Counted from the stretch's first letter, positions 13,081 to 36,789 are shown. The stretch: DNA of 64,000 nt from Lentimicrobium sp. (GCA_024709105.1 JANJXJ010000122.1:1-64000), one strand, 5' to 3'. A program made the numbers and translations. Notes: generated by a model not told the origin, from the letters alone.

Positions 13081-14319
13081 ATGCCCAAAATGACCAATAA
13101 CACTCTTGCAGAGGATAAAACTATAAATTCGTTTCATGATTTTGGTTTCGATCCGCAAATTATCGACGGACTCGATTCGATAGGGTTTGAAACTCCAACT
13201 CCTATTCAGCAGCAGATTATTCCTCACATCCTTCAGGGTAAGGAAGTTATTGGCTGTGCTCAAACCGGAACCGGAAAAACTGCAGCTTACTTGCTTCCGG
13301 TTTTGCATCGCATATTGCAAAATCCTGTTGCAGGAGTTAATACCATTATTATTTGTCCTACCCGGGAGCTTGCCATTCAGATTGAGCAACAACTGGTTGG
13401 ATTCAGTTATTTTATGAGTATCAGTTCTATGGCGGTTTATGGTGGTACCGATGGCATTGAATGGGAACAACAAAAACGTGCTTTAGGCAAAGGTGTTGAT
13501 GTTGTGGTCGCTACTCCGGGGAAACTTATTTCCTTTTTGAATATGGATTTAATTCCGGTCCATAATCTTCAGCACTTAATTCTTGATGAAGCCGACCGGA
13601 TGCTGGATATGGGTTTTGTGGATGATATTATGAAAATCATCAGTTACCTTCCCGAATCAAAATTGTCGTTTCTTTTTTCAGCAACCATGCCGCCCCGCAT
13701 CAGAGAACTGAGCAGAAAGATTCTGAAAAATCCGGTTGAAGTTAACATTTCAGTATCAAAACCTGCTGCAGGAATTCTGCAAGTGGCATATCTGACCTAT
13801 GATAACCAAAAACAGGCAGTATTATCTCAATTGATCAAAGGCAGGGATTTGCCGAGTATACTGATTTTTGCCTCCACCAAAAGCAAAGTTAAATCCATAG
13901 CAAGGGAGTTACAGACTGCTGGTTTTCAGGTATCTGACATTCATTCAGATCTTGAACAATCAGAAAGAGAGAAAGTACTGCTTAGATTCAGGAACCGTAC
14001 TCTTCAGATACTTGTTGCAACCGATGTTTTGTCGCGTGGTATTGATATTGAGAATATTAGTCTGGTTGTTAATTATGATGTACCTCATGATGCCGAGGAT
14101 TATGTTCACAGGGTTGGCCGGACTGCCCGGGCCGAGCAAACGGGTATTGCCATCACTTTTATCAATGAAGCTGATCAGATCAAATTTTCACGTATCGAGA
14201 AACTGATTGAAAGTAACTTGCTGAAATTAAGCCCTCCTGCTGAATTTGGACCAGGACCTGAATACAATCCAAAACCTCTGAGAAGAAATAACTTTCACAA
14301 ACGTAAAAAGAAAAATTAA
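13081..14319 (+). CDS. DEAD-box ATP-dependent RNA helicase
   Basis: RNA helicase of the RhlE/CsdA type that remodels RNA using ATP. It is 412 residues. The Q motif TPTPIQQQIIP is near residue 39, motif I AQTGTGKT near 60, DEAD box (LILDEADRMLDMGF) near 165, and motif III SATMPP near 199. The second RecA domain has STKSKV, VATDVLSRGIDIE near 312 and YVHRVGRTARAEQTG near 339. The tail is short and basic (RRNNFHKRKKKN), as in RNA-binding extensions. A second ATG lies at 13090. It is followed 13 bases later by an SDR-like gene in the same direction. Confidence 0.95.
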   Translation: MPKMTNNTLAEDKTINSFHDFGFDPQIIDGLDSIGFETPTPIQQQIIPHILQGKEVIGCAQTGTGKTAAYLLPVLHRILQNPVAGVNTIIICPTRELAIQIEQQLVGFSYFMSISSMAVYGGTDGIEWEQQKRALGKGVDVVVATPGKLISFLNMDLIPVHNLQHLILDEADRMLDMGFVDDIMKIISYLPESKLSFLFSATMPPRIRELSRKILKNPVEVNISVSKPAAGILQVAYLTYDNQKQAVLSQLIKGRDLPSILIFASTKSKVKSIARELQTAGFQVSDIHSDLEQSEREKVLLRFRNRTLQILVATDVLSRGIDIENISLVVNYDVPHDAEDYVHRVGRTARAEQTGIAITFINEADQIKFSRIEKLIESNLLKLSPPAEFGPGPEYNPKPLRRNNFHKRKKKN

Positions 14320-14332
14320 GGGAGTAAATAAG

Positions 14333-15109
14333 ATGAATCTTAACATCAAGGACAATTTGTTTATTGTGCTGGGAGCATCTTCTGGTTTCGGGAAATCTGT
14401 TTCGGTTGCTTTACTGGGCGACGGCGCAAAAGTAATAGCTGTTGCCAGAAGGCAGGAACTCCTGACACAACTGAGCAATGATTACCCCGGAAAAATTGAA
14501 ACCATTCAGGCTGATGTAACTTTATCAGGATTTGATGATGTGCTTCTGAATGTTGTTGCCGGCCGCCATATTTCAGGAATTTTAATCAATGCAGGTGGGC
14601 CACCGGCATCTGGTTTCTTTGAAACATCGGAGCAGATGTGGCTGGATGCTTATCAGAACGTTTTCCTATGGAAAGTCCGCCTGCTAAACAGACTTCTGCC
14701 TCTTTTCATGAATCAAAAATACGGCAGAATCCTGTTTATTGAAAGTGTTTCTGTAAAGCAACCGGTTGAAAATCTGATTCTTAGTAATTCAATCAGAGCT
14801 GCAGTGGCCGGAATGGTCAAAACATTGGCAGCTGAAATTGCAAATACAGGCGCAACTGTTAATGTACTGGCACCGGGATACCATCAGACAGCAGCTATGG
14901 AACGTCTGTTTGCGAAACGGGCTCAGAAAGAAAATATTTCTATTGAGGCTGCAAAAGATCTGTTCAGTGCTGAAACCGGGATGGGTTTTATGGGAAACCC
15001 CGATGATTTGGCTCAACTGGCTACCTGGTTGCTTTCTCCTTCTTCGGCATTTGTAACCGGACAGGTTATCTCCATTGCAGGCAATGCAGTAAAAGGAATT
15101 ATGGGTTAA
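14333..15109 (+). CDS. Atypical short-chain dehydrogenase/reductase-like protein
   Basis: A Rossmann-fold SDR protein of 258 residues. The cofactor motif is LGASSGFGKS near residue 14. ILINAGGPP near 82 takes the place of the classical NAG. IESVSVKQP near 143 supplies the catalytic-serine region. The usual YxxxK is absent: the matching segment reads SNSIRAAVAGMVKTLAAE near 155. This looks like the BKR-like SDR subgroup that lacks a complete catalytic tetrad. Its substrate, and whether it is an active oxidoreductase, are unknown. It probably shares a transcript with the helicase gene. Confidence 0.75.
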   Translation: MNLNIKDNLFIVLGASSGFGKSVSVALLGDGAKVIAVARRQELLTQLSNDYPGKIETIQADVTLSGFDDVLLNVVAGRHISGILINAGGPPASGFFETSEQMWLDAYQNVFLWKVRLLNRLLPLFMNQKYGRILFIESVSVKQPVENLILSNSIRAAVAGMVKTLAAEIANTGATVNVLAPGYHQTAAMERLFAKRAQKENISIEAAKDLFSAETGMGFMGNPDDLAQLATWLLSPSSAFVTGQVISIAGNAVKGIMG

Positions 15110-15250
15110 TCGGAGTAGGAAATACTAAAGTAAAACTATTATTGAGTTGACTTTTTGAGAATTTGAACTGCTGATTTATAGGTTCAGTCTGGATTTCAGC
15201 TTTCTGTTTAACATCAATTATACTCAATTGGCTGATTTACATAGGGATTA

Positions 15251-15739
15251 TCAACCAAAGTTCTTTTTTATTCCATTCTGAATTCTCAGATAAACTGGTT
15301 TAAGCATAAAATATGCCATGTAAGAAACCGGAGCCATAGTAAGAATCCATAACACAATAGCAATCAGAACGTAACTTAAAGCTTCGGTTCCGGCGTGTTG
15401 CCAGTTACTGCTGAAAATTTGCGTCATAATTTCCGGAATTTCTTTCATTATCGGTTTGCCTGAAATTTTCCCAGCCAGGCTGTAATAAGGTAAAAACAGA
15501 AAGATCTGAACAGGAAACATTATATAATTTACAAACTGCAGCACTGCAAGATTTACCTTAAGTCTCGATGAAACTATAAAACAGAGTATTGTTGAGACTC
15601 CCGGAACAGGAATTGTACCCAGAAAAATTCCGACCGCTGTAGCTTGAGCTAAAAGACTGGCAGTGAGCCCTTGTTTAAGAAACGAAATTACTGCACTATG
15701 TATTTTCTTACCGCTGAATAGCTGAAAAACCTGTTTCAT
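15251..15739 (-). CDS. DUF2062-like membrane protein
   Basis: A 162-residue membrane protein with three or four hydrophobic helices. The motif ATAVGIFLGTIPVPGVSTIL near residue 33 followed by LKVNLAVLQFVNYIMFPVQI near 60 fits DUF2062, a family of unknown function. The start overlaps the rhodanese stop by 4 bases, so it is the last gene of a four-gene operon with the MFS exporter, TIP30-like and rhodanese genes. The 141 bases after the previous plus-strand gene show no clear hairpin. Confidence 0.68.
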   Translation of the reverse strand: MKQVFQLFSGKKIHSAVISFLKQGLTASLLAQATAVGIFLGTIPVPGVSTILCFIVSSRLKVNLAVLQFVNYIMFPVQIFLFLPYYSLAGKISGKPIMKEIPEIMTQIFSSNWQHAGTEALSYVLIAIVLWILTMAPVSYMAYFMLKPVYLRIQNGIKKNFG

Positions 15740-16053
15740 ACATCCATAGAAGGATCTATCTCAGTTGCATATTGATAAATGCCGCCTTCGAGTATGAACA
15801 ACTGTTTTATTTTCAGCTTATCTTTCAGGTAAATATAAACCTGTTCGCTTTTCATTCCATAAATACAATATATCACCACTTTCATATCCTTGTTTATCAG
15901 ATCAAGCTTGTAAGGCAGATCAAGCTGAGGGATTGAAACCGCACCCGGAATATGGCAAGTTTCGAATTTTTCAGCATCGCGGGTGTCAATCAATTGAAAA
16001 TCAGCACCTGAATCAATCAGGGCTTTTAATTCTGCAGGATTTATAAATTTCAT
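15736..16053 (-). CDS. Single-domain rhodanese-like protein
   Basis: A 105-residue rhodanese fold. INPAELKALIDSG starts the domain, LIDTRDAEKFETCHIPGAVSIP follows the family pattern, and the active-site loop IYCIYGMKS carries the catalytic Cys near residue 67. It may act as a sulfurtransferase or sulfide carrier; no partner is evident. It has no signal peptide, so it is cytosolic. It overlaps the next gene by 4 bases. Confidence 0.88.
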   Translation of the reverse strand: MKFINPAELKALIDSGADFQLIDTRDAEKFETCHIPGAVSIPQLDLPYKLDLINKDMKVVIYCIYGMKSEQVYIYLKDKLKIKQLFILEGGIYQYATEIDPSMDV

Positions 16054-16077
16054 TTGAGAATGCTTTAAAGTTAAGAG

Positions 16078-16755
16078 TTAATTAGTGTTTTGAGATAATT
16101 TCTCAATTTCATCAGACTCAAGCACAAACTCGCCTTTTCCTTTGAATGCGCATGATACCATTGCTTTGGCCACTGCAGCTGCATGAATAGGGCGGTATTT
16201 TCTGATTTTTCCAACCAAAACAGGAGTAAGAATAATGGCCAGCTTTTTTCCAATCTCTTCTCCAAATCTCGACTCATGTCTAATACCCAAAAGAACAGAA
16301 GGTCTCAGTATACTCAAGTTGCTGAAATTGAAAGTTCTGATGGAATTTTCCATTTGACCTTTGGTTTTCAGGTAAAAATTCCCCGATTCGGCTGACGCTC
16401 CGATAGAGGAAACAACAATAAAAGCACTCGCTTTATTGATTGAGGCTGCCTGAGCAATTCTTTCGACAAGGTCATGATCGGTTTTGTAGAATTTTTCGTT
16501 GCTGCCTGCCTTTTTTCGGGTAGTTCCGATGCAACAATAGACATGATCAGCAATAATTTTATCAGTAACCTCCTGTATACTTTCAGGGTTAAAAGTTACC
16601 TGCCTTACATTTTTTGGAAAGGTACTGATTTCTTTCCTTACAAAAACAGTTACTGAACTATAGCGGGCATCATGGGCTAATTCCTCAGTAAGGAACCTGC
16701 CAACTAACCCACTAGCGCCAAAAACTATGGCGGTTTTAGATAAAGTTTCATTCAT
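16078..16755 (-). CDS. TIP30/HTATIP2-like NAD(P)-binding protein
   Basis: An atypical SDR with a Rossmann fold, 225 residues. The cofactor motif VFGASGLVGRFL is at residues 12-23. YCCIGTTRKKAGS near 74 and FIVVSSIGASAESGNFYLKTKGQME near 113 (SS...YxxxK) match the TIP30/HTATIP2 group, which includes many bacterial proteins of unknown substrate. LRPSVLLGIR near 150 is the usual later motif. The start overlaps the MFS gene end by 8 bases. Twenty-four bases separate it from the rhodanese gene. Confidence 0.77.
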   Translation of the reverse strand: MNETLSKTAIVFGASGLVGRFLTEELAHDARYSSVTVFVRKEISTFPKNVRQVTFNPESIQEVTDKIIADHVYCCIGTTRKKAGSNEKFYKTDHDLVERIAQAASINKASAFIVVSSIGASAESGNFYLKTKGQMENSIRTFNFSNLSILRPSVLLGIRHESRFGEEIGKKLAIILTPVLVGKIRKYRPIHAAAVAKAMVSCAFKGKGEFVLESDEIEKLSQNTN

Positions 16756-18133
16756 TATTTGAAATATTTTTGTTTCTGAGGTTTCCCCTTTTCAGGGAAA
16801 AAAATACACCGGCAACTGATAATAAAGCGTACACAATGAAAGAGATGCTTATTGCCGACAGAAGTCCGGAGGTATTGGATAAACTTTTACCATTTTCATT
16901 CATTATCAGAGCAAAAATCAACATACTGGAACCCATGCTGAAAGTTTGTCCGGTAAGCCGCATGGTGCCTAAAACCGATGAAGCTGCCCCATAATTTACC
17001 GGAGCAACAGAACTCATAACTGCATTGGTATTGGGAGATGAAAAAAGTGCAAATCCAAGCCCCATAAGTATTAGCATTGAAATGATAAACCAGGGTTGAG
17101 TATCGGCATCTATCAGCGAAAGTGCAATTAATCCAACTACTGTCACCGCCATACCGAGCGAAGCAACAATGGAAGGTTCGATTTTGTCGCTAAGTTTTCC
17201 TGCAACAGGAGAGAGTAATGTCATAGTAACTGGTTGAGCCATAAGGATTAAGCCCGCCTTGTGCGCAGGTAATCCCATAACCTTCTGAAGGTAAAGGCTT
17301 AACAAAAACACCAATGCATAAGTTGCAAAATAATTGATAAATGCAGCAATATTGGAAAAAACAAAAACCTGATTCCCTTTAAAAATCTCTGGTTTAAGGA
17401 GCGGATTTAAGCTTTTTTTCTCAATGAAAAAGAACCCCAGGAATCCAGCTACACCAGCAGTAAAAAAGATTAAGCCATTAACTTTAGTGATGGAAGGAAA
17501 TCCAATAACAATAAATGCCAGGCTTAACGTATAAATCAGGCTTCCGGTAATATCGAATTTCTCCGGTTTGGAATTGAGAACTTCTTTTTCAATATTCCTT
17601 AATGCGAAAGGAAGAATTATGATGCTCAGAATAGCAGTAAGCAGAAAAATACTGCGCCAGCCGCCTGCCAGAATCATAAACCCTCCTATGGTAGGTCCGA
17701 GACTTAGCCCAAGATATACTGCTGCAACATTGATGCCCAGTACTTTACCTCTTTCATTTTTCGGGAAAGCTGAGGTAAGCAGTGCCAGCGCTGTTGCATA
17801 TAACATAGCTCCTCCTGCACCGTTAATTGCCCGGGCAATTATTAAAATTACCGAGTTGGTTGCAAATGCTGAAAATAATGATGCTAATGTAAAAATTATC
17901 ACACCAGCTATAAAAAACTTCTTTCGCCCGTAAATGTCAGACAACCGGCCCAGCGGGAGCAACAATACAGCGGCCGACAACAAATAGGCAGTCATTACCC
18001 AGCCCAGGCCAATGGCATCCATTCCCATTTCGCTGCCTATTGCAGGAAGAGCAATGTTTATGGCCGAACCCATAAAAGGCGTAAGAAATGAACTGAGAGC
18101 TGTAACAAATAAAATCGCATTCTTACTCTTCAT
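16748..18133 (-). CDS. MFS multidrug-type exporter (DHA2, 14-helix)
   Basis: Inner-membrane proton-coupled exporter of 461 residues with about 14 helices. FLTPFMGSAINIALPAIGSEMGM near residue 16 is the helix-1 signature of EmrB/QacA-type DHA2 pumps. GRLSDIYGRKKFF near 62 is the MFS motif A. GAGGAMLYATALALLTSAFPKNERGKVLGI is the motif C-like helix-5 region. The substrate is unknown. It is the first gene of an operon with the TIP30-like, rhodanese and DUF2062 genes. A TACATTTG element lies at 18147-18154. Confidence 0.88.
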   Translation of the reverse strand: MKSKNAILFVTALSSFLTPFMGSAINIALPAIGSEMGMDAIGLGWVMTAYLLSAAVLLLPLGRLSDIYGRKKFFIAGVIIFTLASLFSAFATNSVILIIARAINGAGGAMLYATALALLTSAFPKNERGKVLGINVAAVYLGLSLGPTIGGFMILAGGWRSIFLLTAILSIIILPFALRNIEKEVLNSKPEKFDITGSLIYTLSLAFIVIGFPSITKVNGLIFFTAGVAGFLGFFFIEKKSLNPLLKPEIFKGNQVFVFSNIAAFINYFATYALVFLLSLYLQKVMGLPAHKAGLILMAQPVTMTLLSPVAGKLSDKIEPSIVASLGMAVTVVGLIALSLIDADTQPWFIISMLILMGLGFALFSSPNTNAVMSSVAPVNYGAASSVLGTMRLTGQTFSMGSSMLIFALIMNENGKSLSNTSGLLSAISISFIVYALLSVAGVFFSLKRGNLRNKNISNNE

Positions 18134-18146
18134 CCGGCATTTTTTG

Positions 18147-18154
18147 CAAATGTA
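18147..18154 (-). promoter_or_regulatory. -7 element TACATTTG for the MFS operon
   Basis: TACATTTG on the minus strand, 13 bases before the MFS start codon. The divergent DUF302 gene begins about 100 bases away. Confidence 0.45.
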
Positions 18155-18252
18155 TTGTAATTCTCTTTCACTTTGAGCACACGAATTTTAAGAAATTACC
18201 AACTTTTAGTCCGTTGAACCGTTATATCTGTGATTTTTAAAAATTCCTGAAA

Positions 18253-18639
18253 ATGAACTATTATTTTGTTAAAGAAACCACTCTTGATTTTGATGCGGCA
18301 GTTGAAAAGGTTACCGGACTCCTTAAAGAGCAAGGTTTTGGGATAATTACCCAGATTGATGTTAAAGAAACCTTTAAGCAAAAAATTAACGAAGATTTCA
18401 GAAAATACAAAATTCTGGGTGCATGTAATCCGTCTTTTGCTTTTAAAGCCATAAATAGTGAACCATTAATAGGGCTGCTACTGCCTTGTAATGTGGTAGT
18501 TCAGGAAAAGACCGGAGGAATGGTCGAAGTGAGTGCAATAAATCCGAAGGTTAATCTTGAGCTGGTTAAAAATGAAGCTGTTAATGATCTGGCTTGCACT
18601 GTAACTGAAATTCTGGAAAAAGTAATCAGGCAGATCTAA
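18253..18639 (+). CDS. DUF302 protein
   Basis: A 128-residue protein with the DUF302 fold: an opening strand with YYFVKETTLDFDAAVEKV, then LLKEQGFGIITQIDVKETFKQK near residue 24, and YKILGACNPSFAFKAI near 58, with the conserved LGACNP motif. LLLPCNVVVQE near 77 is also typical. The family's role is unknown; some members accompany metal or redox genes. It has no signal peptide. It converges on the unknown 473-residue protein gene with only 5 bases between the stops. Confidence 0.88.
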   Translation: MNYYFVKETTLDFDAAVEKVTGLLKEQGFGIITQIDVKETFKQKINEDFRKYKILGACNPSFAFKAINSEPLIGLLLPCNVVVQEKTGGMVEVSAINPKVNLELVKNEAVNDLACTVTEILEKVIRQI

Positions 18640-18644
18640 GCTTT

Positions 18645-20066
18645 TTATCTGTAACCAAACAGATTTTTCTTTTTGATGGTTTCTGCTACATAAACCGGTA
18701 CTAATTTCTCCCAGGAGTCATCACCTGCCTTAATTCTCTGTAAAACCATCGGAGAGAATATATTGATGTACTTTTTATTGATTTCGGTTACTTCCAGAAT
18801 TCTGCGGCCAGCAATCAGGTAGTTGTATAAATGCTTTGTTTCTTCAGTAAATCTGATGTCACCGGATTTGATAAGTTCGCTGGTTTCGGGCTTTAAACCC
18901 GGATATACATACATTTTCATGTTGGCAGGAAATAACTTGCCAAAGGCTTCAAGTATACCTCCTCTTAAATCCTGGTAAAAGCGGGGATCGAATATTTTTT
19001 CAAAAGTTTCGGCACCTACCACCAGCCTTAATTTATGGATTTTAAAACCCGAAAAATAATGAACTAATTTGTAAAACTCTCTGAATCCTGAAACCATTAC
19101 ATTCTGTCCCATTCCATTCAGCAGGTCAACTCTGTCAAGGAAATCCCGTTCATCAATGTTCTGATCTTCAGGATTCAACAGGTTATCTAAAGTGATTTCA
19201 CAAAAAGAGAGCGTATTGCTTTTATCGTAATCTTCGTCGCGTTTAAACAAGGCGTAGCTTGATTTAAGAATATCAAAACCTGCATAGGTAATGGGTCTGA
19301 AGCTTCCGCGGAAAGCAAGCACATTCTTTTTGTACAACATGTCGTCAGGCTCCTGCACATTGCCATATCTGTCAAACATAATGGCTTTTGCCATGCCATT
19401 TTTCACAAGCTGAACAGCAAGCAAACGGTTATCAACATAATTCAGCTGCGGACCTTTCATTCTGATCATGGTGATCTCCATCCGGTCGGTTGAAAGGTTG
19501 TCGAGCAAAGACTGTATAAAAGAATTGGGCCGGTCATGATGAAAGAAACATGCATAAATCAGATTCACACCTGCTATACCTAATGTATTTTGCTGCAGTA
19601 CATTATCCTTCTCATGCAGACCAATGTGAACAATAATTTCATTGGGCTCCGCATCAGGTTCCAGCTGAAAACGGCAACCCATCCAGCCATGACTTACATT
19701 ATCTTTCTTGTAGTTGATTGTTGAAACTGTATTTGCATACACAAAATAGCGGGTAGGGGATTCGCGTTTGTCGCTCAGGCTGCCAATCAGCTGATTGTAT
19801 TCACAATCAAGCATTTCCTCTAGTCTTTGGCAGGAAACATATCGTTTGGTTGCCTGATTATTACTGTAGAGAAGATCGCTGTATTGTTTGTCATATGCCG
19901 AAATGGTCTTGGCAATGGTACCGGAAGCGCCACCAGCCTGGAAAAAATTACGTGAGACTTCCTGCCCGCCTCCAATCTCTGCGAAAACACCATAAGTGGT
20001 TCTGTCTAGATTGATTGTGAGCGCTTTAAGGCTGGTTGAAATTACTTCTCTCTCCATGAGCAGCAT
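18645..20066 (-). CDS. Conserved protein of unknown function, partner of the flavin-regulated receptor
   Basis: A 473-residue soluble protein that I recognise as a widespread bacterial family with inconsistent labels (some entries call it a TonB receptor or a nucleotide adenylyltransferase). No HxGH motif of adenylyltransferases is present. The conserved N-terminal block is LTINLDRTTYGVFAEIGGGQ, then VSRNFFQAGGASGTIAKTIS near residue 37, KRYVSCQRLEEMLDCEYNQL near 73 and SHGWMGCRFQ near 124. A further block GMGQNVMVSGFREFYKLVHY is near 314. It has no signal peptide or helix crossing the membrane. The ATG at 20066 is 9 bases after the receptor stop, so it belongs to the FMN-riboswitch transcript. 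That context suggests a link to flavin use, which is inference only. Confidence 0.72.
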   Translation of the reverse strand: MLLMEREVISTSLKALTINLDRTTYGVFAEIGGGQEVSRNFFQAGGASGTIAKTISAYDKQYSDLLYSNNQATKRYVSCQRLEEMLDCEYNQLIGSLSDKRESPTRYFVYANTVSTINYKKDNVSHGWMGCRFQLEPDAEPNEIIVHIGLHEKDNVLQQNTLGIAGVNLIYACFFHHDRPNSFIQSLLDNLSTDRMEITMIRMKGPQLNYVDNRLLAVQLVKNGMAKAIMFDRYGNVQEPDDMLYKKNVLAFRGSFRPITYAGFDILKSSYALFKRDEDYDKSNTLSFCEITLDNLLNPEDQNIDERDFLDRVDLLNGMGQNVMVSGFREFYKLVHYFSGFKIHKLRLVVGAETFEKIFDPRFYQDLRGGILEAFGKLFPANMKMYVYPGLKPETSELIKSGDIRFTEETKHLYNYLIAGRRILEVTEINKKYINIFSPMVLQRIKAGDDSWEKLVPVYVAETIKKKNLFGYR

Positions 20067-20075
20067 TGAATTGTG

Positions 20076-22649
20076 TTAGAATTTTATAGCCATTGTGAAG
20101 CTAAATGTTCGGCCATGTGTCCAAAAACCTCTGAATGAGTTCAAATCATGAGTTTTTCCGTCTTCACCACGGGTAATGGATTCCTTGCCTGACAGGTTAT
20201 AACAACTTATACCTGCAATGGTTTTTAATTGCCCGATCTTAAATTCATATTCAAGAAACAGGTCAATATTGGAATAATCTGGTATCCTGTAAGGCTGCTT
20301 GCGGTCATCAGGGTTATTTCTTCCGGCCGGGTCAAAGTTAGCATATAAGCTTCCAAAATACAACCAGTTTACTTTTAAATTCCAGTCTTTGAGAATGGTG
20401 GCATCAGCAAACAAGCCCATTTGAAACTGCGGTGCATCCCCGACTTTCAGATCTTTCACATAAACTTCTGTCAAATCAATTAGTTCCTGATTATCATTAT
20501 ACAACTCAGCAATAACATCGTTTCTCCAGCGCCAGTCGCCAACTGATAGAATACCACCTAGCGAAAGTGACCGGTTTATTTTCCCCGTCATTTCAAGCTC
20601 TATACCTTTATGCAAAGCATCAAGTCCCCTGATCAAAGCCCGGGTTTGCGAATTGTCTTCCAGTTGAATATTCTCCCGGCTGAGTATCGATTTATCTTCC
20701 CACAAGGTGTAATAAGCATTCAGGTTAACATTAAGCTTTGACGATGAAAATGTATAGCCAAGCTCAGCTGATTTAATGGATTCGTTCTTAATGTCCTGAA
20801 CGACCGCATTGGAGAAATTGGCAAAAACAAATTTGTAATAAGGTGCTTTTGAGTAATAACCTGCATTCAGATAGAGGTTATGCTGCTCATTCAACTGGTA
20901 GCTGATTCCTGATTTTACATCAAAGCCGGCTTTGCTTACTTTCTCGCTAGCTGTGTTGTTAATGTAATTGATCCGGTCAAACCTCTGGTATCTGGTGCCT
21001 GATACAGTTCCTGCAAGAAAAAGATTCATCTTCCCGAAACTATATTCGGCCTGTCCGAACATACTGATTACATCAACACGTGCATCATTGTCAACATTAA
21101 TGATGTCGCCTTTGGTTTTTATCTGCTGTCTGCCTGCAATACCTGCCAGCGACCAGGCATATTCGTCAATCCAGTATTTCCCGCCAAGTAAGTCGCTGAT
21201 TTCTTCACGCAGATTGGATTTGAAGTATCTGGCATGTAAACCTGCTGTTATTTTTATTCCGTTTTCAAGTTCATGAGTCAGGTTGGTAAGCCCGCCATAC
21301 CAGATGTGGCTTGCCAGATAATTTGTCTGGATAATTTTTGAAAATCCTCCCACTACAGAACCATCAGCCAGCCTGGAAGAATCATTATGAGTTTTGTTAA
21401 GGTTGTAAATTGCATCCCAGTCAATTTGATTACTTTTTCTGAAAGTGTTGGCTGACGGGCTTTTATAGGATTCTGAGAATTTTCCGCCTCCGTAGCCAAA
21501 CGATAAATAAGCACTGCTGGCCAGATGTGTTTTATCGCTGATGTTCCAGTAATGGTTCAGCGATAACTGAGGTTTATGATAGAAATTCTCTGAAAGGCTG
21601 TTGATTTTACCTTTATACATACCCCAGTTGGGATTGTATTTGATGCCAAAGTCACTATATTCTTGTTTTGTAAGCCCATATGTTCTTTGCCCGTGCCTTT
21701 CAGGTGACCCCATCCCGGTAAAAACAAGCAAATGTTTATTATTAATCTGTTTGCTTGCCGAAATAAACCATGCCCAGGCATCTACATGAGTTGCATCAAC
21801 ATAGCCTGGTCCGCGGGTGCGCGAACCAAGGAAAGTTACAGCAAAACCTTTCTCTGAGAGCCCGCTTGAAATACTGAATATGGTTTTTTGATTCCCGTAA
21901 CTGGTAAACATATGCCTGAGGGTACCTCCTTTGGCTGCTTCGGTGGTTTTGGTGATGATATTTATTGTGCCTCCCACTGAGTTAAGCGCAACTTTTGATG
22001 CTCCTAATCCTTTTTGTACCTGAATGGCTTGTGTTGCATCACCAAGTCCGGCCCAGTTTGACCAGTAAACAAGTCCGTTTTCGACAGAACTAACAGGAAC
22101 CCCGTTGAGCAACAGTCCCAGATTTTCCTGCTGAAAACCTCTTATGCTTATCCGGGCATCGCCGGTTCCTCCTCCAAGTTTGGTTGCATATACTCCAGGT
22201 ACCATCTTCATGATTTCGGGATATTCCTGACTTCCCATTTCACGTTCAATGGTTCTTTGACTTATGTTACTTATGGCTACAGGAGTTGTCCGCTCACTAA
22301 TGTATGATGCTATAATATTTATTTCATCCAAACCTACCTGCCTGGCAGTTAGATAGATATGCTCAATTCCTGATTTTAGTGGCTTCTTAATTTCAAGGGT
22401 TAAAGCCTGGTAAGAAACATGTTTAATAAGGATTGCAGCAGATTCCCCGGGAATGGCAATTTCAAATAGTCCTTCTTCATCTGAGGTAGTTGCCCGGTTA
22501 CTGCCATCAATCTGTACTGTAGCGCCTGATATGGTTTTTCCGGATGTGAGATCAATGAGTTTGCCCTTAAAATTGTTCTGGGCAGAGAGATTCAGCAGCG
22601 AGAACAGAGAAAGAATGCAGGGAAGAGACTTGAGTGCAAAATTCTTCAT
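20076..22649 (-). CDS. TonB-dependent outer-membrane receptor under FMN riboswitch control
   Basis: An 857-residue outer-membrane importer. The signal peptide ends LNLSAQ near residue 24. Residues 27-110 are a carboxypeptidase-regulatory-like domain (FKGKLIDLTSGKTISGATVQ). The plug follows, with MKMVPGVYATKLGGG near 147, ISIRGFQQENLGLLLNGVPV near 166 and GGTINIITKT near 226. The remainder is a barrel that ends in aromatic FSFTMAIKF. No SusD-like gene follows, so it is not a classical glycan system. An FMN aptamer lies upstream in the same direction, and therefore a flavin (riboflavin or FMN) is the likely cargo. The start ATG overlaps the stop of a 23-codon ORF by the ATGA pattern. Confidence 0.9.
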   Translation of the reverse strand: MKNFALKSLPCILSLFSLLNLSAQNNFKGKLIDLTSGKTISGATVQIDGSNRATTSDEEGLFEIAIPGESAAILIKHVSYQALTLEIKKPLKSGIEHIYLTARQVGLDEINIIASYISERTTPVAISNISQRTIEREMGSQEYPEIMKMVPGVYATKLGGGTGDARISIRGFQQENLGLLLNGVPVSSVENGLVYWSNWAGLGDATQAIQVQKGLGASKVALNSVGGTINIITKTTEAAKGGTLRHMFTSYGNQKTIFSISSGLSEKGFAVTFLGSRTRGPGYVDATHVDAWAWFISASKQINNKHLLVFTGMGSPERHGQRTYGLTKQEYSDFGIKYNPNWGMYKGKINSLSENFYHKPQLSLNHYWNISDKTHLASSAYLSFGYGGGKFSESYKSPSANTFRKSNQIDWDAIYNLNKTHNDSSRLADGSVVGGFSKIIQTNYLASHIWYGGLTNLTHELENGIKITAGLHARYFKSNLREEISDLLGGKYWIDEYAWSLAGIAGRQQIKTKGDIINVDNDARVDVISMFGQAEYSFGKMNLFLAGTVSGTRYQRFDRINYINNTASEKVSKAGFDVKSGISYQLNEQHNLYLNAGYYSKAPYYKFVFANFSNAVVQDIKNESIKSAELGYTFSSSKLNVNLNAYYTLWEDKSILSRENIQLEDNSQTRALIRGLDALHKGIELEMTGKINRSLSLGGILSVGDWRWRNDVIAELYNDNQELIDLTEVYVKDLKVGDAPQFQMGLFADATILKDWNLKVNWLYFGSLYANFDPAGRNNPDDRKQPYRIPDYSNIDLFLEYEFKIGQLKTIAGISCYNLSGKESITRGEDGKTHDLNSFRGFWTHGRTFSFTMAIKF

Positions 22650-22717
22650 GGTATGCCAGTTTTATAATTGTTTTCAGAGAATGTAAAAAATACATTCTCC
22701 AGGGCAGAATATACCAT
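22646..22717 (-). CDS. Putative 23-residue leader ORF coupled to the receptor start
   Basis: The frame begins with ATG at 22717 and encodes MVYSALENVFFTFSENNYKT plus GIP before a TGA at 22648-22646. The TGA overlaps the receptor ATG as ATGA, the classic layout for translational coupling. An AAGGAG SD lies 8 bases before its ATG, unusual in this lineage. The SD sits in a hairpin directly after the FMN aptamer. No homology is visible. It could be only an RBS delivery device, and it could also be a chance frame; the combination of SD, spacing and stop overlap favours a real translated ORF. Confidence 0.5.
   Translation of the reverse strand: MVYSALENVFFTFSENNYKTGIP
22677..22699 (-). repeat. Perfect 9-bp hairpin within the leader ORF
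   Basis: GAGAATGTA and TACATTCTC face each other across a 5-base A/T loop. On the transcript strand the T tract is in the loop and not after the stem, so it does not look like an intrinsic terminator. It lies inside the leader ORF and could slow or be opened by ribosomes. Confidence 0.55.
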
Positions 22718-22720
22718 GGA

Positions 22721-22744
22721 TTCATCTCCTTAAAAGGGGATGAA
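22721..22744 (-). promoter_or_regulatory. Hairpin that sequesters the SD after the FMN aptamer
   Basis: On the transcript strand TTCATCCCCTT and AAGGAGATGAA form a stem of 10 pairs with one C-A mismatch and a 2-base loop. The AAGGAG at 22731-22726 is held in the stem. CATCC on the left arm could alternatively pair with GGATG at the 3' end of the aptamer. That would free the SD when the aptamer is unfolded, a plausible translational switch. Confidence 0.55.
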
Positions 22745-22757
22745 GTGCAATAAGGCA

Positions 22758-22880
22758 ATTCTTCTTCCATCCTGACTTTACAGTCGGTACCGGAGTTTCA
22801 CCGGTTCAGTCTTGCAACATAACGTTGCTTGAGTCGCGGACTATACCGCCGATCGGGAATTTCACCCTGCCCTGAAGAAT
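22758..22880 (-). ncRNA. FMN riboswitch (RFN element)
   Basis: On the minus strand the conserved RFN blocks appear in order: the P1 strand ATTCTTC (22880-22873 side), AGGGCAGGGTGAAATTCCCG, then ATCGGCGGTATAGTCCGCGA. A variable arm follows, then CCGGTGAAACTCCGG, TACCGACTGTAAAGTC and GGATGGAAG, with the closing P1 strand GAAGAAT (22764-22758). These match the class of FMN aptamers that normally control riboflavin synthesis or transport genes. Here it precedes a TonB-dependent receptor by about 108 bases. FMN binding would be expected to lower expression. Confidence 0.95.
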
Positions 22881-22895
22881 CTATTTAAACTGCTG

Positions 22896-22903
22896 CAAAA
22901 ATA
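22896..22903 (-). promoter_or_regulatory. -7 element TATTTTTG upstream of the FMN riboswitch
   Basis: TATTTTTG on the minus strand fits TAnnTTTG and is placed so that transcription would begin just before the aptamer. It lies in the interval 22650-23068, the longest gap between annotated large genes; besides the leader, riboswitch and this element, 22904-23068 is A/T-rich with nothing I can support. Confidence 0.45.
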
Positions 22904-23068
22904 TCAATTACTTTTTAAAAGCAAAATATTTAATCACTCTGGCCTGTGTTTTTTCAATCTCTGCTCACTTGCGACAATAAGAAACTATTTTATCAATAGC
23001 TGCTGAAAATTAAAATGTTACTTGGCTTCAATCAAAACACCTGTTTTTTTTGTTAGTGTAAAGTTTTA

Positions 23069-26000
23069 ATGCAGTATTCATACAAAATCAAATGTTTCAT
23101 GGCCCCCGGAAAATCAAAAAAGATTAAGCAAAATACTGTTCAAACTGCAGATAAACTGTCGTCGGTAAAAGAAACTGTTTCGGAACAAACAGAAGTTACA
23201 GTGGTAGCCGACAACGATTTGATATGTGTGGGCATTGGTGCATCAGCCGGCGGGCTCGAAGCACTTGAAGTTTTCTTCCGGAATATGCCGGTTGACACAG
23301 GAATGGCTTTTGTGGTTGTTCAGCATCTCTCACCTGATTATAAAAGTCTGATGGGCGAGTTGCTTTCCCGTTATACCACCATGAAAATTTACCGGGCCGA
23401 GGATGGAATTAAGGTGTTGCCCAATTCAGTTTACCTTATTCCGCCCAAAATGAATATGACTATTTTTCATGGCAAATTATTTCTAACAGCACAGGATTTC
23501 AACAGAGGATTAAACCTGCCCATAGATATTTTTCTCAGGTCGCTTGCTCAGGATAAAGGCAAAAACGCTGTTGCCATAATTCTTTCTGGCACAGGTAGCG
23601 ACGGAACATTAGGAATAAGGTCAGTTAAGGAAGAGGGAGGAATGGTGATGGTTCAGGATGATCAAAGTGCAAAGTTTGATGGAATGCCCCGTAGTTCTAT
23701 TGCCACAGGACTGGTAGATTATATATTACCCCCCGAAAAAATGCCCGAGGAACTGGTAAAATACATTAAGCATCCCTACATAAAAAGGGCCGGAAAAATT
23801 GAAAATATTATTTCAAAAGATGAAGATATTCTTACCAAAATACTCAAAATTCTACGCGATAAAGTTGGAGTTGACTTTACCTACTACAAGCCTGCCACCA
23901 TACTCAGAAGGCTTGAGAAACGAATCAGCATCAATCAGATAAATAAAATAGAAAATTACATTTCCTTTCTGGAACAGTCGTCATCAGAAGCCAGAATTCT
24001 TTACAAGGAACTACTGATAGGTGTAACTCAGTTTTTTCGCGATCAGGAGGCATTCAGGATACTTGAAGAAAAAGTTATTCCTGGTATTTTCGAAGGCAAG
24101 AAACCCGGAGACACGGTTAGAATCTGGAGTGTGGGATGCTCTACCGGAGAAGAGGCTTATTCACTCGCAATATTACTCAGAGAATACATGGACGCCAAAC
24201 AACTTAACAATGATGTTAAGGTTTTTGCTACCGATATTGACAGTGAATCCATTGAATATGCCAGTTCAGGAGTTTATCCCGAAAGTATAGTTTCAGATGT
24301 TACACCCGACCGGCTGAGAAATGGTTTCACCAAACGGGAGAATAGTTATGTGGTTAGCGAAAGGATACGCAGAATGGTAATTTTTGCATCACATAGTGTT
24401 ATCAAAGACCCGCCTTTTACCAAAATTGACCTGATTGTCTGCCGTAACGTGCTCATATATCTTAACGCTGAAATGCAAAAAAGAATTATGGCCATGTTTT
24501 ATTATGCCTTACAAAACTCGGGGTTTTTATTTCTGGGAAGCAGCGAAACCATTGGCGAGCTTGCCGAAGGATACCAGCCGGTTAATTCAAAATGGAAACT
24601 CTACAGGCTCAAGGAAGGTTTCAGACTGCCGGCTCAGTATAACCTTCACAACACCATAGGATCGCTGCGTGAATCAAAAAGCAGGGTTAAAATGTCGGAG
24701 CCGGGGGTAGTGTCAGAGAGCCTTTTCAGACTTGACGGATTGCTTGATGAACTGGTTTCAGGATTTATTCCACCCAGTGTTTTGGTGGACAGCAAGTTTG
24801 AACTTTTGCATGTTTTCAACGATGTAAATAAATTCCTGATAATCCCTGCAGGTAAAGCCAATCTTAATATTCTTAAGATGGTCCAGCCAGAGGTTTCTGT
24901 GGTGCTTAGCAGTTTATTACACAAAGTTGCAAAAGATGGAAAACCAATTACTTACCGCGATGTGAAATTTACAGATTCGGGCAGGATTAATTCTGTGGAT
25001 TTGGGCTGTAAAATATTGAATGACCCGAGGACAAAAAGTCTGGTGTTTCTGGTATCGTTCATTCTGGATGAGAAAAAAGAAGCTCCTGCTGCTATGGTTA
25101 TTGATGATCAGCTTACATCACATTTCAATGACAGGTTTCATGAACTTGAGAGGGAACTCAAATATACCAAAGAGAACCTTCAGGCTACTATCGAAGAGCT
25201 GGAAACCTCAAATGAAGAACTACAATCAACCAATGAAGAGCTTATAGCTTCCAACGAAGAACTTCAGTCAACAAACGAAGAGCTTCAATCGGTGAATGAA
25301 GAATTATATACAGTAAATTCTGAATATCAGAATAAGATTGAAGAGCTAACCCAACTTACCAATGACATTAATAACCTTCTGAAAAATACCAACATTGGTA
25401 CCATGTTTCTCGATAAATATCTGAGAATAAGGAGGTACACACCTGCAATTGTTAATTCCATAAATCTGATTGATCTGGATTTAGGGCGTCCATTTTACCA
25501 TATCTCACACAATCTTATTATAGATAACCTGCGCGAAGAACTTGAAAACGTGCTCGATACACTTTCTCCTAAAGAAATTGAGGTTCAGGATCGCAGTGGA
25601 AAATGGTACATTCTGCGACTGCTGCCCTACCGAACGCTTGATAATGCCGTGGATGGGATAGTTCTGACCTTAATTGACATAACCGAAAGGCGGCGTTTTG
25701 AATCAAGTTTAAAGACTGAACGTGAATTGCTGATAAGATCCCTGGAAATAAATCCAACCGGACATTTGATATTAGGAAGTGATGGATTGATAACTTATGC
25801 AAACAAAGCGCTGTGCATGTTGCTTGATCTGGATATTTCTGATTTGATTGGCAAACACTTTGACACAGTGAACTGGATGACTTTTGAACAGAATAAGGGT
25901 GCAAAAGTGTTAAATAAAATGCCCCTTAACAAGTTACTTGCTGATCATCAGAACGGATATAAAGGATCTCTTGCTTATGCAAACAACGAAGGAAAGGAGA

Positions 26001-26116
26001 TAATTCTTGCACTGAAAGGAGTGCCTATCTATGACTCAAACTCTGAACTTACAGGCTTGATATTCACTTTTAGTGACATTACCTCCGATTGCAGAAAAAA
26101 CAAAAATAAATCCTGA
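23069..26116 (+). CDS. CheB-CheR-PAS fusion protein
   Basis: A 1015-residue signalling fusion. A CheB methylesterase-like domain comes first (GIGASAGGLEAL near residue 55, VVQHLSPDYKSL near 84, ILSGTGSDGT near 170, the Ser-His-Asp elements). A CheR methyltransferase domain follows (IWSVGCSTGEEAYSLA near 351, CRNVLIYL near 457). A coiled coil of NEELQSTNEEL heptads spans about 700-770, then two PAS domains. There is no receiver domain before CheB and no methyl-accepting protein, CheA or CheW gene nearby, so chemotaxis is doubtful. Such fusions often sit with hybrid kinases. The ATG at 23069 is used; ATG 23099 (MAPGKSKK) is a good alternative. The next gene starts 4 bases after its stop. Confidence 0.93.
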   Translation: MQYSYKIKCFMAPGKSKKIKQNTVQTADKLSSVKETVSEQTEVTVVADNDLICVGIGASAGGLEALEVFFRNMPVDTGMAFVVVQHLSPDYKSLMGELLSRYTTMKIYRAEDGIKVLPNSVYLIPPKMNMTIFHGKLFLTAQDFNRGLNLPIDIFLRSLAQDKGKNAVAIILSGTGSDGTLGIRSVKEEGGMVMVQDDQSAKFDGMPRSSIATGLVDYILPPEKMPEELVKYIKHPYIKRAGKIENIISKDEDILTKILKILRDKVGVDFTYYKPATILRRLEKRISINQINKIENYISFLEQSSSEARILYKELLIGVTQFFRDQEAFRILEEKVIPGIFEGKKPGDTVRIWSVGCSTGEEAYSLAILLREYMDAKQLNNDVKVFATDIDSESIEYASSGVYPESIVSDVTPDRLRNGFTKRENSYVVSERIRRMVIFASHSVIKDPPFTKIDLIVCRNVLIYLNAEMQKRIMAMFYYALQNSGFLFLGSSETIGELAEGYQPVNSKWKLYRLKEGFRLPAQYNLHNTIGSLRESKSRVKMSEPGVVSESLFRLDGLLDELVSGFIPPSVLVDSKFELLHVFNDVNKFLIIPAGKANLNILKMVQPEVSVVLSSLLHKVAKDGKPITYRDVKFTDSGRINSVDLGCKILNDPRTKSLVFLVSFILDEKKEAPAAMVIDDQLTSHFNDRFHELERELKYTKENLQATIEELETSNEELQSTNEELIASNEELQSTNEELQSVNEELYTVNSEYQNKIEELTQLTNDINNLLKNTNIGTMFLDKYLRIRRYTPAIVNSINLIDLDLGRPFYHISHNLIIDNLREELENVLDTLSPKEIEVQDRSGKWYILRLLPYRTLDNAVDGIVLTLIDITERRRFESSLKTERELLIRSLEINPTGHLILGSDGLITYANKALCMLLDLDISDLIGKHFDTVNWMTFEQNKGAKVLNKMPLNKLLADHQNGYKGSLAYANNEGKEIILALKGVPIYDSNSELTGLIFTFSDITSDCRKNKNKS

Positions 26117-26120
26117 AACT

Positions 26121-28616
26121 ATGCATAACCACGATAAAAGCCGTCAATTGCGCGAACGAGCGGAAAGTATCCTGAAATCCCGCAATTCAGCCAATAAAGA
26201 TATTTATAGTGCCGAAAATCTGGGCAAATTAATCGAAGAGCTTCAGATTTATCAGATTGAACTTGAAACACAAAACGAAGAGATGCAAAGGCTCTACTCT
26301 GCGCTTGAAACATCATCTGCAAGATATACTTCGCTCTTTGATTTTGCCCCCATTGGCTATCTCACTACAGATGAAAACGATCTTATTCAGGAAATTAACC
26401 TTACAGGTTGTGAGATTCTGGGAATGGAAAGACAGCTGATTGTCGGACTCGCTATTACACGGTTTTTTTCTCCCGATTCGCAGGATAACTATTATTTTCA
26501 TGTACGCAAAGTAAGGGAAACAGCAACCAAGCAAATTACTGAACTGGCTTTACAAAAACGGCCGGGTTCAGAAGTTAAGGTTCCTGCATTTGTTCAACTC
26601 ATCAGCTTGCCCGACGAAAATGGAAGTGGTATAAAATCTGCATTTATTGATATTACGCAACGAAAGCTGGCTGCTGAAAATTTAAAGGAGAATGAGGCAA
26701 GACTCAACAGCATCTTCAGGGCTACACCAGCCGGAATTGGTATGGTGATTAATCGTGAGTTAACTCTGGTAAATGACAGGTTATGCGATATGCTTGGTTA
26801 TGATAATCAGGAACTTATCGGAAAAAGTACCAGGATTCTTTTTCCATCAGATGAGGAATTCCTTAGAGTAGGATCTGAGAACTATGCCAGACTGGAGCGC
26901 GAAAGTATAAGTCTGATGACCAGCAAATTTCAGCATAAAAACGGCAAAATAATAGATGTTTTACTCAGCACTTCAGCCCTGGAAAATGGAAATTCGCGCA
27001 AAGGGGTTACTTTCACAGCACTTGATATTTCCAGGCAACTTGATACTGAAAAAAGTCTGGTTGAAGTTCAATTGAAATTCGAAATGATTGCAAGCAATGC
27101 ACGCGATGGCATATTGTTGCTGAACCGTGATGGTTCAATCAATTATTTCAATCCATCGGTGGCTAAATTATTTGGCTATGAATCAAAAACACTTGAGAAA
27201 TTAAGACTTCTTGATATAATTGAGCCCGACCAGAATAGCGAAGTTATCACAAACCTATTTGCCAAATATTCAAAAGCAAAAGTCAGGTCTAGAATTACCA
27301 GAAACTTTGAGTTGTCGGGAAAGAAGAGTGATGGCACCGTTTTCCCTCTGGAGCTTTCTCTTTCTTCTTTTGTATTTGGAGCCGAAGTAATGCTTGTTGC
27401 AATCATCAGAGATTTTACTGAGCACAAAATCACGCAGTACAATCTGATGAAAGCCAAGGAAAAAGCAGAAGAGTCTGAAAGGTTAAAAACTGCATTTTTA
27501 GCTAATGTGTCGCACGAAATCAGAACTCCCATGAATGCCATTCTGGGCTTTGTTAGCTTAATGCAGGAATTTGATTCATCATTTGAAGAAAGAGAGGAAT
27601 ATTTTTATCAGATAAAAACCAACGGGGAAATTCTGATGAATCTTATCAATGATATTATTGACTTATCAAAACTTGAGAGTGATGCCATGTCGTTATATCC
27701 CGAACAACTGGAAATCAGATCTTTTGTGGAGGAGATTTATTCTTTTCTGGTTAATGAACTCAGGTTAAAACATAAGAATAATGAAATAGTCCCAAGGCTG
27801 ATTTTTCCAGAGGAGCTTGCTTTTGCAGTTGTATTGGTTGACAGGCTCAGACTCAGGCAGGTACTTACAAATTTAATACAGAATGCAGTAAAGTTTACTC
27901 AGAAAGGCAGTATATCTCTTATTGTAAGTACAGATAATTTTGATGACAATTCACGGTTTAATCTGATATTCAATATCAGCGACACCGGAATAGGAATTGA
28001 AAGAGATAAAACCACATATATCTTCGACTCTTTCAGGCAGGTTGAGGACCCCTTCTCGAGAAAATATGGCGGAGCCGGACTGGGTTTATCAATTGTTAAA
28101 AAGATTGTAGAATCTATGGGTGGAAGGGTGGAGGTTAACTCTGTATACGGAAAAGGATCTGATTTTGTAGTTAAGTTGCCTGTTGAATTTGAGACCGGGA
28201 GTAAAGATGAAAACAGTTCAGGTAAAAACCCTGAATTTGAAGATTATCAAGGTTGCAAAGCTCTGGTTGTAGAGGATAAATATGCAAATTCAAAATATTT
28301 GCAATCCCTGCTCACAAAAAGTGGCATACATGTCTTGCTTGCTGAAAGTGGCGAAGAGGCTGTTGCAGTTTTTGGTGGTAATCCTGACATAGACATTGTT
28401 TTGATGGATATTCAATTACCGGGAATGGATGGGTTTGATGCTGCTAGCAGAATAAGAATGCTTAACAGGAATGTGCCTGTTATTGCCCAAACAGCCTTTG
28501 CAACGTCTGAAAATCAAATCAGATTCAAAGCAGCAGGTTTTAATGATTACGTTTCAAAACCAATAAATGCCAGGGAGTTGCTCAAAAAAATAGCCATGCA
28601 CCTGAAAAAAAGATAA
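26121..28616 (+). CDS. PAS hybrid sensor histidine kinase with receiver domain
   Basis: An 831-residue cytosolic hybrid kinase. Coiled-coil and three PAS domains occupy about residues 20-440 (LFDFAPIGYLTTDENDLI, FRATPAGIGMVINREL, IASNARDGILLLNRDG). The HisKA box NVSHEIRTPMNA has its His near residue 465. The HATPase part shows NLIQNAVKFT, SDTGIGI and GGAGLGLSIVK. A C-terminal receiver (VLMDIQLPGMDG) has its phospho-acceptor Asp near 763 and a KP pair near the end. No transmembrane helix or signal peptide is seen. I use ATG 26121, since the upstream ATG 26073 would overlap the CheB-CheR end by 44 bases. It is the second gene of a signalling operon. Confidence 0.92.
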   Translation: MHNHDKSRQLRERAESILKSRNSANKDIYSAENLGKLIEELQIYQIELETQNEEMQRLYSALETSSARYTSLFDFAPIGYLTTDENDLIQEINLTGCEILGMERQLIVGLAITRFFSPDSQDNYYFHVRKVRETATKQITELALQKRPGSEVKVPAFVQLISLPDENGSGIKSAFIDITQRKLAAENLKENEARLNSIFRATPAGIGMVINRELTLVNDRLCDMLGYDNQELIGKSTRILFPSDEEFLRVGSENYARLERESISLMTSKFQHKNGKIIDVLLSTSALENGNSRKGVTFTALDISRQLDTEKSLVEVQLKFEMIASNARDGILLLNRDGSINYFNPSVAKLFGYESKTLEKLRLLDIIEPDQNSEVITNLFAKYSKAKVRSRITRNFELSGKKSDGTVFPLELSLSSFVFGAEVMLVAIIRDFTEHKITQYNLMKAKEKAEESERLKTAFLANVSHEIRTPMNAILGFVSLMQEFDSSFEEREEYFYQIKTNGEILMNLINDIIDLSKLESDAMSLYPEQLEIRSFVEEIYSFLVNELRLKHKNNEIVPRLIFPEELAFAVVLVDRLRLRQVLTNLIQNAVKFTQKGSISLIVSTDNFDDNSRFNLIFNISDTGIGIERDKTTYIFDSFRQVEDPFSRKYGGAGLGLSIVKKIVESMGGRVEVNSVYGKGSDFVVKLPVEFETGSKDENSSGKNPEFEDYQGCKALVVEDKYANSKYLQSLLTKSGIHVLLAESGEEAVAVFGGNPDIDIVLMDIQLPGMDGFDAASRIRMLNRNVPVIAQTAFATSENQIRFKAAGFNDYVSKPINARELLKKIAMHLKKR

Positions 28617-28722
28617 TGCCCGTGATTAGCTCTGTAATTGAGCATTTTCTGAACTTTATATTTTAATAAATGTTTAACTAATCAATCTGTTTCTCAAAGC
28701 AGATTAATTACAAAACAATCTT

Positions 28723-34599: not shown

Positions 34600-34652
34600 C
34601 GGGTTTATAATTGAGTTGTAAGCCGGCAATTTTTTTAAGTTGTCAAATTCAG

Positions 34653-35837: not shown

Positions 35838-35878
35838 AATTTTTTTTTTAAACTATTTGTTTTTCCGATTGTTTTTTG

Positions 35879-35919
35879 TTGTAATTTTGATCAAATTCTA
35901 ATCAAAATTTCGATTACAA
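35879..35919. promoter_or_regulatory. Candidate repressor operator between the S24 and DinB genes
   Basis: A/T-rich nested inverted repeats. AATTTTGAT (35883-35891) faces ATCAAAATT (35901-35909), and TTGTAAT (35879-35885) faces ATTACAA (35913-35919). The left half also contains the perfect palindrome TTTGATCAAA (35886-35895). They fill the 115-base space between two divergent genes, one encoding a LexA-like repressor. An operator for that repressor is the likely reading. Confidence 0.5.
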
Positions 35920-35952
35920 TATAATCATTTTTTTTAAAACACCAACATCGCC

Positions 35953-36789
35953 ATGAATATTTTTGCTTCAAACATCAAATTGCTTCGCAAACGCAGAGGG
36001 CGTACGCAAGACGAAGTAGCTTTTGTGCTCGGCATGAAACGGCCAACCCTTAGTGGCTACGAAAATGAGGTTGCTCAGCCTGGAATTGATGCCTTGCTCG
36101 CTTTCTCCAGGTATTTTGGTATTTCCATTGATACTTTGCTTAAGGTTGATTTGTCGAAACTTTCGCAAAGCGAACTTTCGCAGCTCGAAAAAGGCTACGA
36201 TGTATTTATTACCGGAAGTAAGATCAGGGTACTTGCTACAACGGTTGATTCGCAAAACAACGAAAATATAGAAGTGGTAAACCAAAAGGCCTCGGCTGGT
36301 TACAGGCTCGGATTTTCTGATCCCGATTATATTAAAATACTTCCAACCTTCCATATGCCTTTTCTTTCGAAAGAAAAAAAGTACCGCACCTTTCAGATAA
36401 CAGGAGATTCCATGCTGCCTATACCTGACGGGTCGTGGGTAACCGGAGAATTTATTCAGAACTGGAACCTGATACGCGATGGGCAACCCTGCATTGTACT
36501 CACTCTCGACGATGGCATTATGTTTAAAATTGTGGAAAACCGGATTAAATCAGACGGAAAACTCCTGCTGAGTTCACTTAATCCGCTTTACGATTCTTAT
36601 AGTATAGATATAAAAGATGTCAGAGAGGTATGGAAGTTTGTTCACTACATCAGCAGCGCCATGCCCGAGCCCAATCTGCCGCGCGAAGAGCTTTCTGCTA
36701 CCGTGGTTGCACTTAAAAAAGATCTGGAAAAGCTTAAGAAACAGGTAAATGAGGCTGTGGTTCTTAAACTGCCGTTTGATGAAGCATAA
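35953..36789 (+). CDS. XRE-S24 (LexA-like) self-cleaving repressor
   Basis: A 278-residue transcription regulator. Residues 5-62 form an XRE helix-turn-helix (NIKLLRKRRGRTQDEVAFVL, RPTLSGYENEVAQPG). Residues 110-230 form an S24 peptidase-type domain. The AG pair in QKASAGYRLGF (A115-G116) is the expected cleavage site. The nucleophile is Ser153 in GDSMLPIPDG and the general base Lys192 in GIMFKIVEN, with spacing close to LexA. A C-terminal helix follows (about 245-270). It is divergent from the DinB-DnaE operon and likely represses it until DNA damage. It may also bind its own promoter. Its SD is not obvious. Confidence 0.9.
   Translation: MNIFASNIKLLRKRRGRTQDEVAFVLGMKRPTLSGYENEVAQPGIDALLAFSRYFGISIDTLLKVDLSKLSQSELSQLEKGYDVFITGSKIRVLATTVDSQNNENIEVVNQKASAGYRLGFSDPDYIKILPTFHMPFLSKEKKYRTFQITGDSMLPIPDGSWVTGEFIQNWNLIRDGQPCIVLTLDDGIMFKIVENRIKSDGKLLLSSLNPLYDSYSIDIKDVREVWKFVHYISSAMPEPNLPREELSATVVALKKDLEKLKKQVNEAVVLKLPFDEA

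Follow-up and report, generated by a model that had tools for sequence, protein, structure and literature searches.

An FMN riboswitch precedes a TonB-dependent receptor that is a candidate outer-membrane flavin importer in a predicted riboflavin auxotroph of the genus Lentimicrobium

The 64,000-nucleotide stretch of Lentimicrobium sp. DNA analysed here (GCA_024709105.1, JANJXJ010000122.1:1-64000; hereafter the window) encodes a TonB-dependent receptor, TBDR1, behind a flavin mononucleotide (FMN) riboswitch. We propose that TBDR1 is an outer-membrane flavin importer under FMN riboswitch control in a riboflavin auxotroph, a reading that is well supported by sequence comparison although not proven. 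The same switch stands on the riboflavin synthesis (rib) genes in relatives that possess them and on a receptor in relatives that lack them, and the receptor is therefore very probably a flavin importer. The target of the riboswitch would thus have changed from vitamin synthesis to vitamin import.

The riboswitch aptamer, placed at 22758-22880 on the minus strand by a preliminary description of this DNA, is real and is the same element as the RF00050 match listed in Table 1. The alignment spans the full covariance model (1-138) and scores 115.7 bits against an Rfam gathering score of 66.2, and a genome-wide scan shows it to be the sole RF00050 match in the 4.47 Mb genome. TBDR1 is the first gene 3' of the aptamer, with its start codon 105 nt past it, and is the complete receptor that had been claimed, with CarbopepD_reg_2 (PF13715), Plug (PF07715) and TonB_dep_Rec_b-barrel (PF00593) domains in Pfam. 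Its AlphaFold2 (AF2) model is a barrel (pLDDT 83.7) that matches known TonB-dependent receptors in Foldseek with E 1e-32, and its fold matches in the PDB include Fiu, PqqU and FecA; the plug and beta-barrel together place it among the TonB-dependent receptors. Homologues of TBDR1 lie directly 3' of FMN riboswitches in about 35 other genomes, and neither a rib gene nor a SusD gene is in the gene set, as had also been noted. A scan of IMG/VR for relatives of TBDR1 returned 80 loci with at most 41% identity; a pattern search detected an FMN riboswitch motif at none of them, and the scan was dropped.

Profile searches of the window genome (96.8% complete) gave no match to PF00885 (lumazine synthase, ribH), PF00925 (GTP cyclohydrolase II, ribA), PF00677 (riboflavin synthase, ribE) or PF00926 (DHBP synthase, ribB); ribD was not searched on its own. 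The flavokinase RibF (PF01687) is present, and the absence of ribA, ribB, ribE and ribH together with the retention of RibF predicts that the organism is a riboflavin auxotroph. PF00885, PF00925 and PF00677 are likewise missing from the seven closest relatives (L002-L008), all of which retain RibF and have the gene order riboswitch, TBDR1 and a gene for a 473-residue protein, as in the window. A second, weaker flavokinase-domain match (G000:C190:23557-23931, L196) accompanies the main RibF in the window genome, as it does in most of the closest relatives; some prototrophs have it too.

The gene-neighbourhood survey that had been suggested as a check was carried out on 197 genomes drawn evenly from the order; 42 of them contain an RF00050 match over the cut-off and 160 contain PF00885. 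The gene following the riboswitch encodes a TonB-type receptor in all 17 riboswitch-containing genomes without PF00885 and PF00926, and is ribD or ribB in all 25 with both families (ribB at these loci was confirmed by a PF00926 match). Of the 16 auxotrophs other than the window genome, 15 have behind the riboswitch a receptor that is a homologue of TBDR1 over most of its available length, with 34-60% identity; in G564 the receptor is known from 168 residues alone, which resemble a second receptor type. Riboswitch-linked receptors, G475 excepted, cluster in the tree apart from prototroph homologues (branch 90/99). Two genomes with identical contig coordinates (G471 and G022) were counted as one. 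G034 was considered as an exception, having a riboswitch and no PF00677 match, and was rejected as such when tblastn revealed a ribD-E-BA-H operon behind its riboswitch, split into frames. At this locus (L104) the homology to ribD, ribE, ribBA and ribH extends over several frames and short open reading frames, from either decay or assembly errors. A class-wide RF00050 scan, in which 8 candidates per genome were scored, found the window genome alone among 396 genomes and was not used as an estimate of distribution.

Several points weigh against a flavin importer in an auxotroph. The Fisher test for the split in riboswitch targets, which by genome gives p 3.9e-12, counts related genomes as if they were independent, and its p value is hence optimistic; the auxotrophs fall into 12 families and the prototrophs into 18, two of which occur on both sides. 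The genomes are mostly metagenome-assembled, so that single gene absences could be gaps, a risk that is mitigated by four rib families being missing together while RibF is found. Receptors similar to TBDR1 also occur apart from the switch: G445, which lacks ribH, encodes one of 37-38% identity that is unaccompanied by a riboswitch, and the prototrophs G030 and G601 encode receptors of 35-37% identity away from their riboswitch. Lastly, the window genome yielded no inner-membrane flavin transporter, for which no genome-wide search was made.

The exchange of rib genes for a receptor can be followed within a single genus (g267). In G593 (L242) the riboswitch is followed by ribD-ribE-ribBA-ribH-TBDR2, and in G499 (L194), which is without ribH and ribB, by TBDR1-TBDR2 and a gene of the type I phosphodiesterase/nucleotide pyrophosphatase family (NPP; PF01663, ENPP-like). 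The TBDR2 proteins of the two genomes are close sisters in the tree, and rib genes and receptor thus share one regulatory slot. These observations bear on the alternative that the receptor imports a non-flavin compound, such as a ferric chelate, with FMN control tying uptake to flavin-dependent redox or iron metabolism. TonB-dependent receptors are mostly siderophore receptors, Fiu and FecA are among the closest solved folds, and cross-talk between iron and riboflavin is a topic of published discussion. However, a non-flavin ligand leaves unexplained both the in-place exchange within one genus and the presence of the riboswitch on rib genes in all rib-positive and on a TonB-type receptor in all rib-negative genomes, and we regard it as very unlikely.

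Extended operons suggest how imported flavins might be used. Behind TBDR1, many auxotrophs carry a second receptor and then NPP, to which seven of them add a PhoD-like phosphatase (PF09423), giving riboswitch-TBDR1-TBDR2-NPP-PhoD. The cleavage of flavin adenine dinucleotide (FAD) to FMN and adenosine monophosphate is a plausible reaction for an NPP enzyme, and a phosphatase could then yield riboflavin, so that the operon looks like one for FAD/FMN salvage. These genes raise the possibility that the receptor takes FAD, FMN or protein-bound flavin for salvage and not free riboflavin, with the phosphodiesterase and phosphatase acting before or after uptake. The window operon contains neither enzyme and no permease, and G543 carries a nucleoside-family permease instead, in the order riboswitch, receptor and NupG-like permease (PF03825), a candidate outer- plus inner-membrane pair. 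We consider salvage by the receptor possible but doubtful; it is a refinement of flavin import by TBDR1, with which its probability overlaps. Whether a flavin-scavenging operon (two receptors, an FAD-splitting ENPP-type pyrophosphatase and an FMN-dephosphorylating PhoD-type phosphatase) replaced the rib operon behind the same riboswitch in auxotrophic Bacteroidales, with the window as a reduced form comprising the receptor and an unrelated companion gene, we judge to be evenly balanced. If it did, the scavenging operon would be the first system for outer-membrane flavin import and salvage. In many auxotrophs (loci L087, L088, L091-L095, L097 and L102) the riboswitch-TBDR1 unit comes after an NlpC/P60-SH3 gene, which in L087 matches PF00877; bacilliredoxin-like and thioredoxin-reductase-like genes were also seen upstream by eye.

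The leader of TBDR1 has a switch-like architecture that fits, by prediction, a response to FMN. The first 18 nt of the aptamer and the linker segment 22708-22690 form a duplex of -27.2 kcal/mol (RNAduplex), and 200 dinucleotide-shuffled linkers gave a mean of -12.2 ± 2.4 kcal/mol with none as strong (z -6.2). Complementarity between the 5' strand of the aptamer and the linker recurs in nearly all related leaders. In a second predicted pairing, CAUGGUA and UGCC (within 22719-22702) pair with GGCA and UACCAUG (within 22658-22647), the AUG included. The linker segment is common to the two predicted pairings, which exclude each other, a predicted coupling of the expression platform to the P1 helix of the aptamer that fits a receptor switched off at high and on at low FMN. 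Comparable pairings of the start region are predicted in L003-L005, L008, G436 and G541. In L003-L005 and L008, GGTATTCTG-type sequences pair with CAGAATACC-type sequences beside the ATG, a pairing preserved in L008 despite base changes on both sides, while G436 and G541 build the same architecture from different sequence. G614, G499 and G008 have a terminator-like GC hairpin followed by a T-run in place of the start-codon sequestor, and the leaders of L006 and L008 have such a hairpin and T-run plus the start-region pairing, which may represent control at two levels. A putative promoter, assigned solely by consensus match, comprises a -7 box TATTTTTG at 22903-22896, 5' of the aptamer, and a TTTG at 22925-22922, 18 nt further upstream; TANNTTTG precedes the aptamer in the other leaders compared, as it does in the window.

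When FMN is low, the aptamer would pair through its 5' strand with the downstream segment CUGCCCUGGAGAAU, the start-codon hairpin would be blocked and the receptor would be made. At high FMN, closure of P1 would release the downstream segment, which in the window clade would sequester the start codon and shut off the receptor; in several other lineages the terminator-like hairpin and T-run would take the place of the sequestor. Powered by TonB, the receptor would carry riboflavin or FMN/FAD over the outer membrane, and RibF would convert riboflavin to FMN and FAD. The sequence itself shows the aptamer and the receptor, a loss of rib genes alongside a retained RibF, the division of riboswitch targets and the alternative pairings; the identity of the ligand, the direction of transport and the regulation in vivo are inferred. 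The preliminary claim that the receptor imports a flavin when FMN is low is thus well supported by predicted auxotrophy with retention of RibF, the split in riboswitch targets, the in-place exchange and the switch-like leader.

As described previously, the gene for the 473-residue protein begins 9 bases past the receptor gene. In this clade alone it appears to share a transcript with TBDR1. The protein has no Pfam match and no sequence-profile match. Its AF2 model (pLDDT 88.2) has a predicted nucleotidyltransferase fold, with Foldseek matches to NadD (E 1.8e-6, TMt 0.63) and, more weakly, to CinA (E 1.6e-3), the latter corresponding in our reading to the N-terminus, so that the predicted fold resembles a degenerate CinA joined to NadD. 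Weak, partial PDB matches to P450-BM3 (E 0.03-0.3) were rejected; a weak CoaD match (13 bits) agrees with the fold match obtained afterwards, whereas the motif does not bear it out. The nucleotidyltransferase-like fold, the 9-bp gap and the adjacency conserved in the window and L002-L008 would suit a true functional partner of the receptor, either a flavin nucleotide adenylyltransferase or a regulator. However, the HxGH/TxGH catalytic motif of NadD is not conserved (RPITYAGFD in the window protein and variable in relatives), and RibF is present and already supplies FAD synthesis. The gene is absent from G436 and G541, the two genomes of the same genus with the riboswitch and TBDR1. It is separate from the receptor in every other lineage examined, and at L009-L037 neither a TBDR1 nor a riboswitch is near it. 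It occurs in 45 of the 197 genomes, one copy each, and shows no association with auxotrophy (8 of 17 riboswitch auxotrophs versus 9 of 25 riboswitch prototrophs; p 0.53). A functional partnership is thus highly improbable, and the earlier suggestion of a helper or flavin-processing factor is not supported. We read the product as a putative nucleotide-binding protein that moved beside TBDR1 in this clade, probably as a clade-specific operon companion outside the transport mechanism.

Table 1. Positions of the principal features of the locus in the window
Feature	Position	Strand	Basis
FMN riboswitch aptamer (RFN element, RF00050)	22755..22883	minus	cmscan 115.7 bits, E 2.9e-26
TBDR1, TonB-dependent receptor, 857 aa, candidate flavin importer	20076..22649	minus	Pfam domains, AF2 fold
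Antisequestor segment UCUGCCCUGGAGAAUGUAU	22690..22708	minus	complementary to aptamer 5' strand 22883-22866
Start-codon sequestor	22647..22719	minus	predicted 11-bp pairing, -12.9 kcal/mol
Putative Bacteroidota-type promoter	22896..22925	minus	consensus match only
473-aa cytosolic-type protein, predicted CinA-like N-terminal and NadD-like C-terminal fold	18645..20066	minus	AF2/Foldseek

The region after TBDR1 (13081-18639) encodes DUF302, DHA2-type MFS, SDR, rhodanese and DUF2062 proteins and a DEAD-box helicase, in an order that is largely conserved in L002-L007 and also in G436 and G541, where the 473-aa gene is missing. Because of this synteny the MFS gene (16748-18133) was considered as an inner-membrane flavin carrier, but it has no regulatory link and is retained as a lead only. 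Inspection by eye of 23069-31653, divergent from the riboswitch, suggests a fused protein of CheB/CheR type and a pair of large PAS/hybrid histidine kinases. At 31660-36789, again by eye, genes for DnaE-type and DinB-type polymerases and for a LexA-like regulator stand side by side, resembling a translesion-synthesis cassette. A tandem pair of tRNA genes, each with a long variable arm, lies at 52252-52335 and 52394-52477.

To our knowledge, the riboflavin transporters controlled by FMN riboswitches (RibU, RibM, RibN, ImpX, RibXY, RibZ and RibV) are all inner-membrane or ABC-type, unlike TBDR1, which by its domains and fold is an outer-membrane protein and falls outside the known riboflavin transporter families; RibM/PnuX, RfnT and RfuABCD were also included in this comparison. 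The seven riboswitch-controlled transporters share with TBDR1 the class of RNA and the inference of a transporter from its riboswitch (PMC4418817; PMC3766115). TonB and the outer membrane are unmentioned in these two large surveys of FMN riboswitches, one of which reports the riboswitch to be absent in Bacteroidaceae (PMC3766115). In the papers examined on the FMN riboswitch together with TonB, the riboswitch lies ahead of ribD. No TonB receptor under FMN riboswitch control turned up in the open-access literature searched, subscription papers being outside this coverage. An outer-membrane receptor for flavins would thus provisionally be new, those for B12 and thiamine being already known in Bacteroidota.

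A named gene family, the logic of its regulation and the natural experiment offered by prototrophs and auxotrophs with the same riboswitch make flavin cross-feeding in anaerobic communities directly testable. Among solved folds, PqqU (YncD), an importer of the organic redox cofactor pyrroloquinoline quinone, is one of the closest to TBDR1 (TMt 0.82-0.83), although it shares only about 14% identity and differs in ligand and organism. The likeness of the 473-aa protein to NadD (nicotinic acid mononucleotide adenylyltransferase) and CinA/PncC lies in its predicted C- and N-terminal folds, respectively, and does not extend to the catalytic motif of NadD. BtuB is, like TBDR1, an outer-membrane TonB-dependent receptor controlled by a cofactor riboswitch, but its cofactor is cobalamin. 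In Bacteroides thetaiotaomicron, OMthi (BT2390) offers the closest precedent: it too is a Bacteroidota TonB-dependent receptor behind a vitamin riboswitch, and it affects growth on thiamine once other routes are removed (PMC5613172). The OMthi riboswitch responds to thiamine pyrophosphate and not to FMN, and B. thetaiotaomicron keeps thiamine synthesis whereas the window lineage has lost riboflavin synthesis. The arrangement described here extends the known pairing of vitamin riboswitches with TonB-dependent receptors to FMN.

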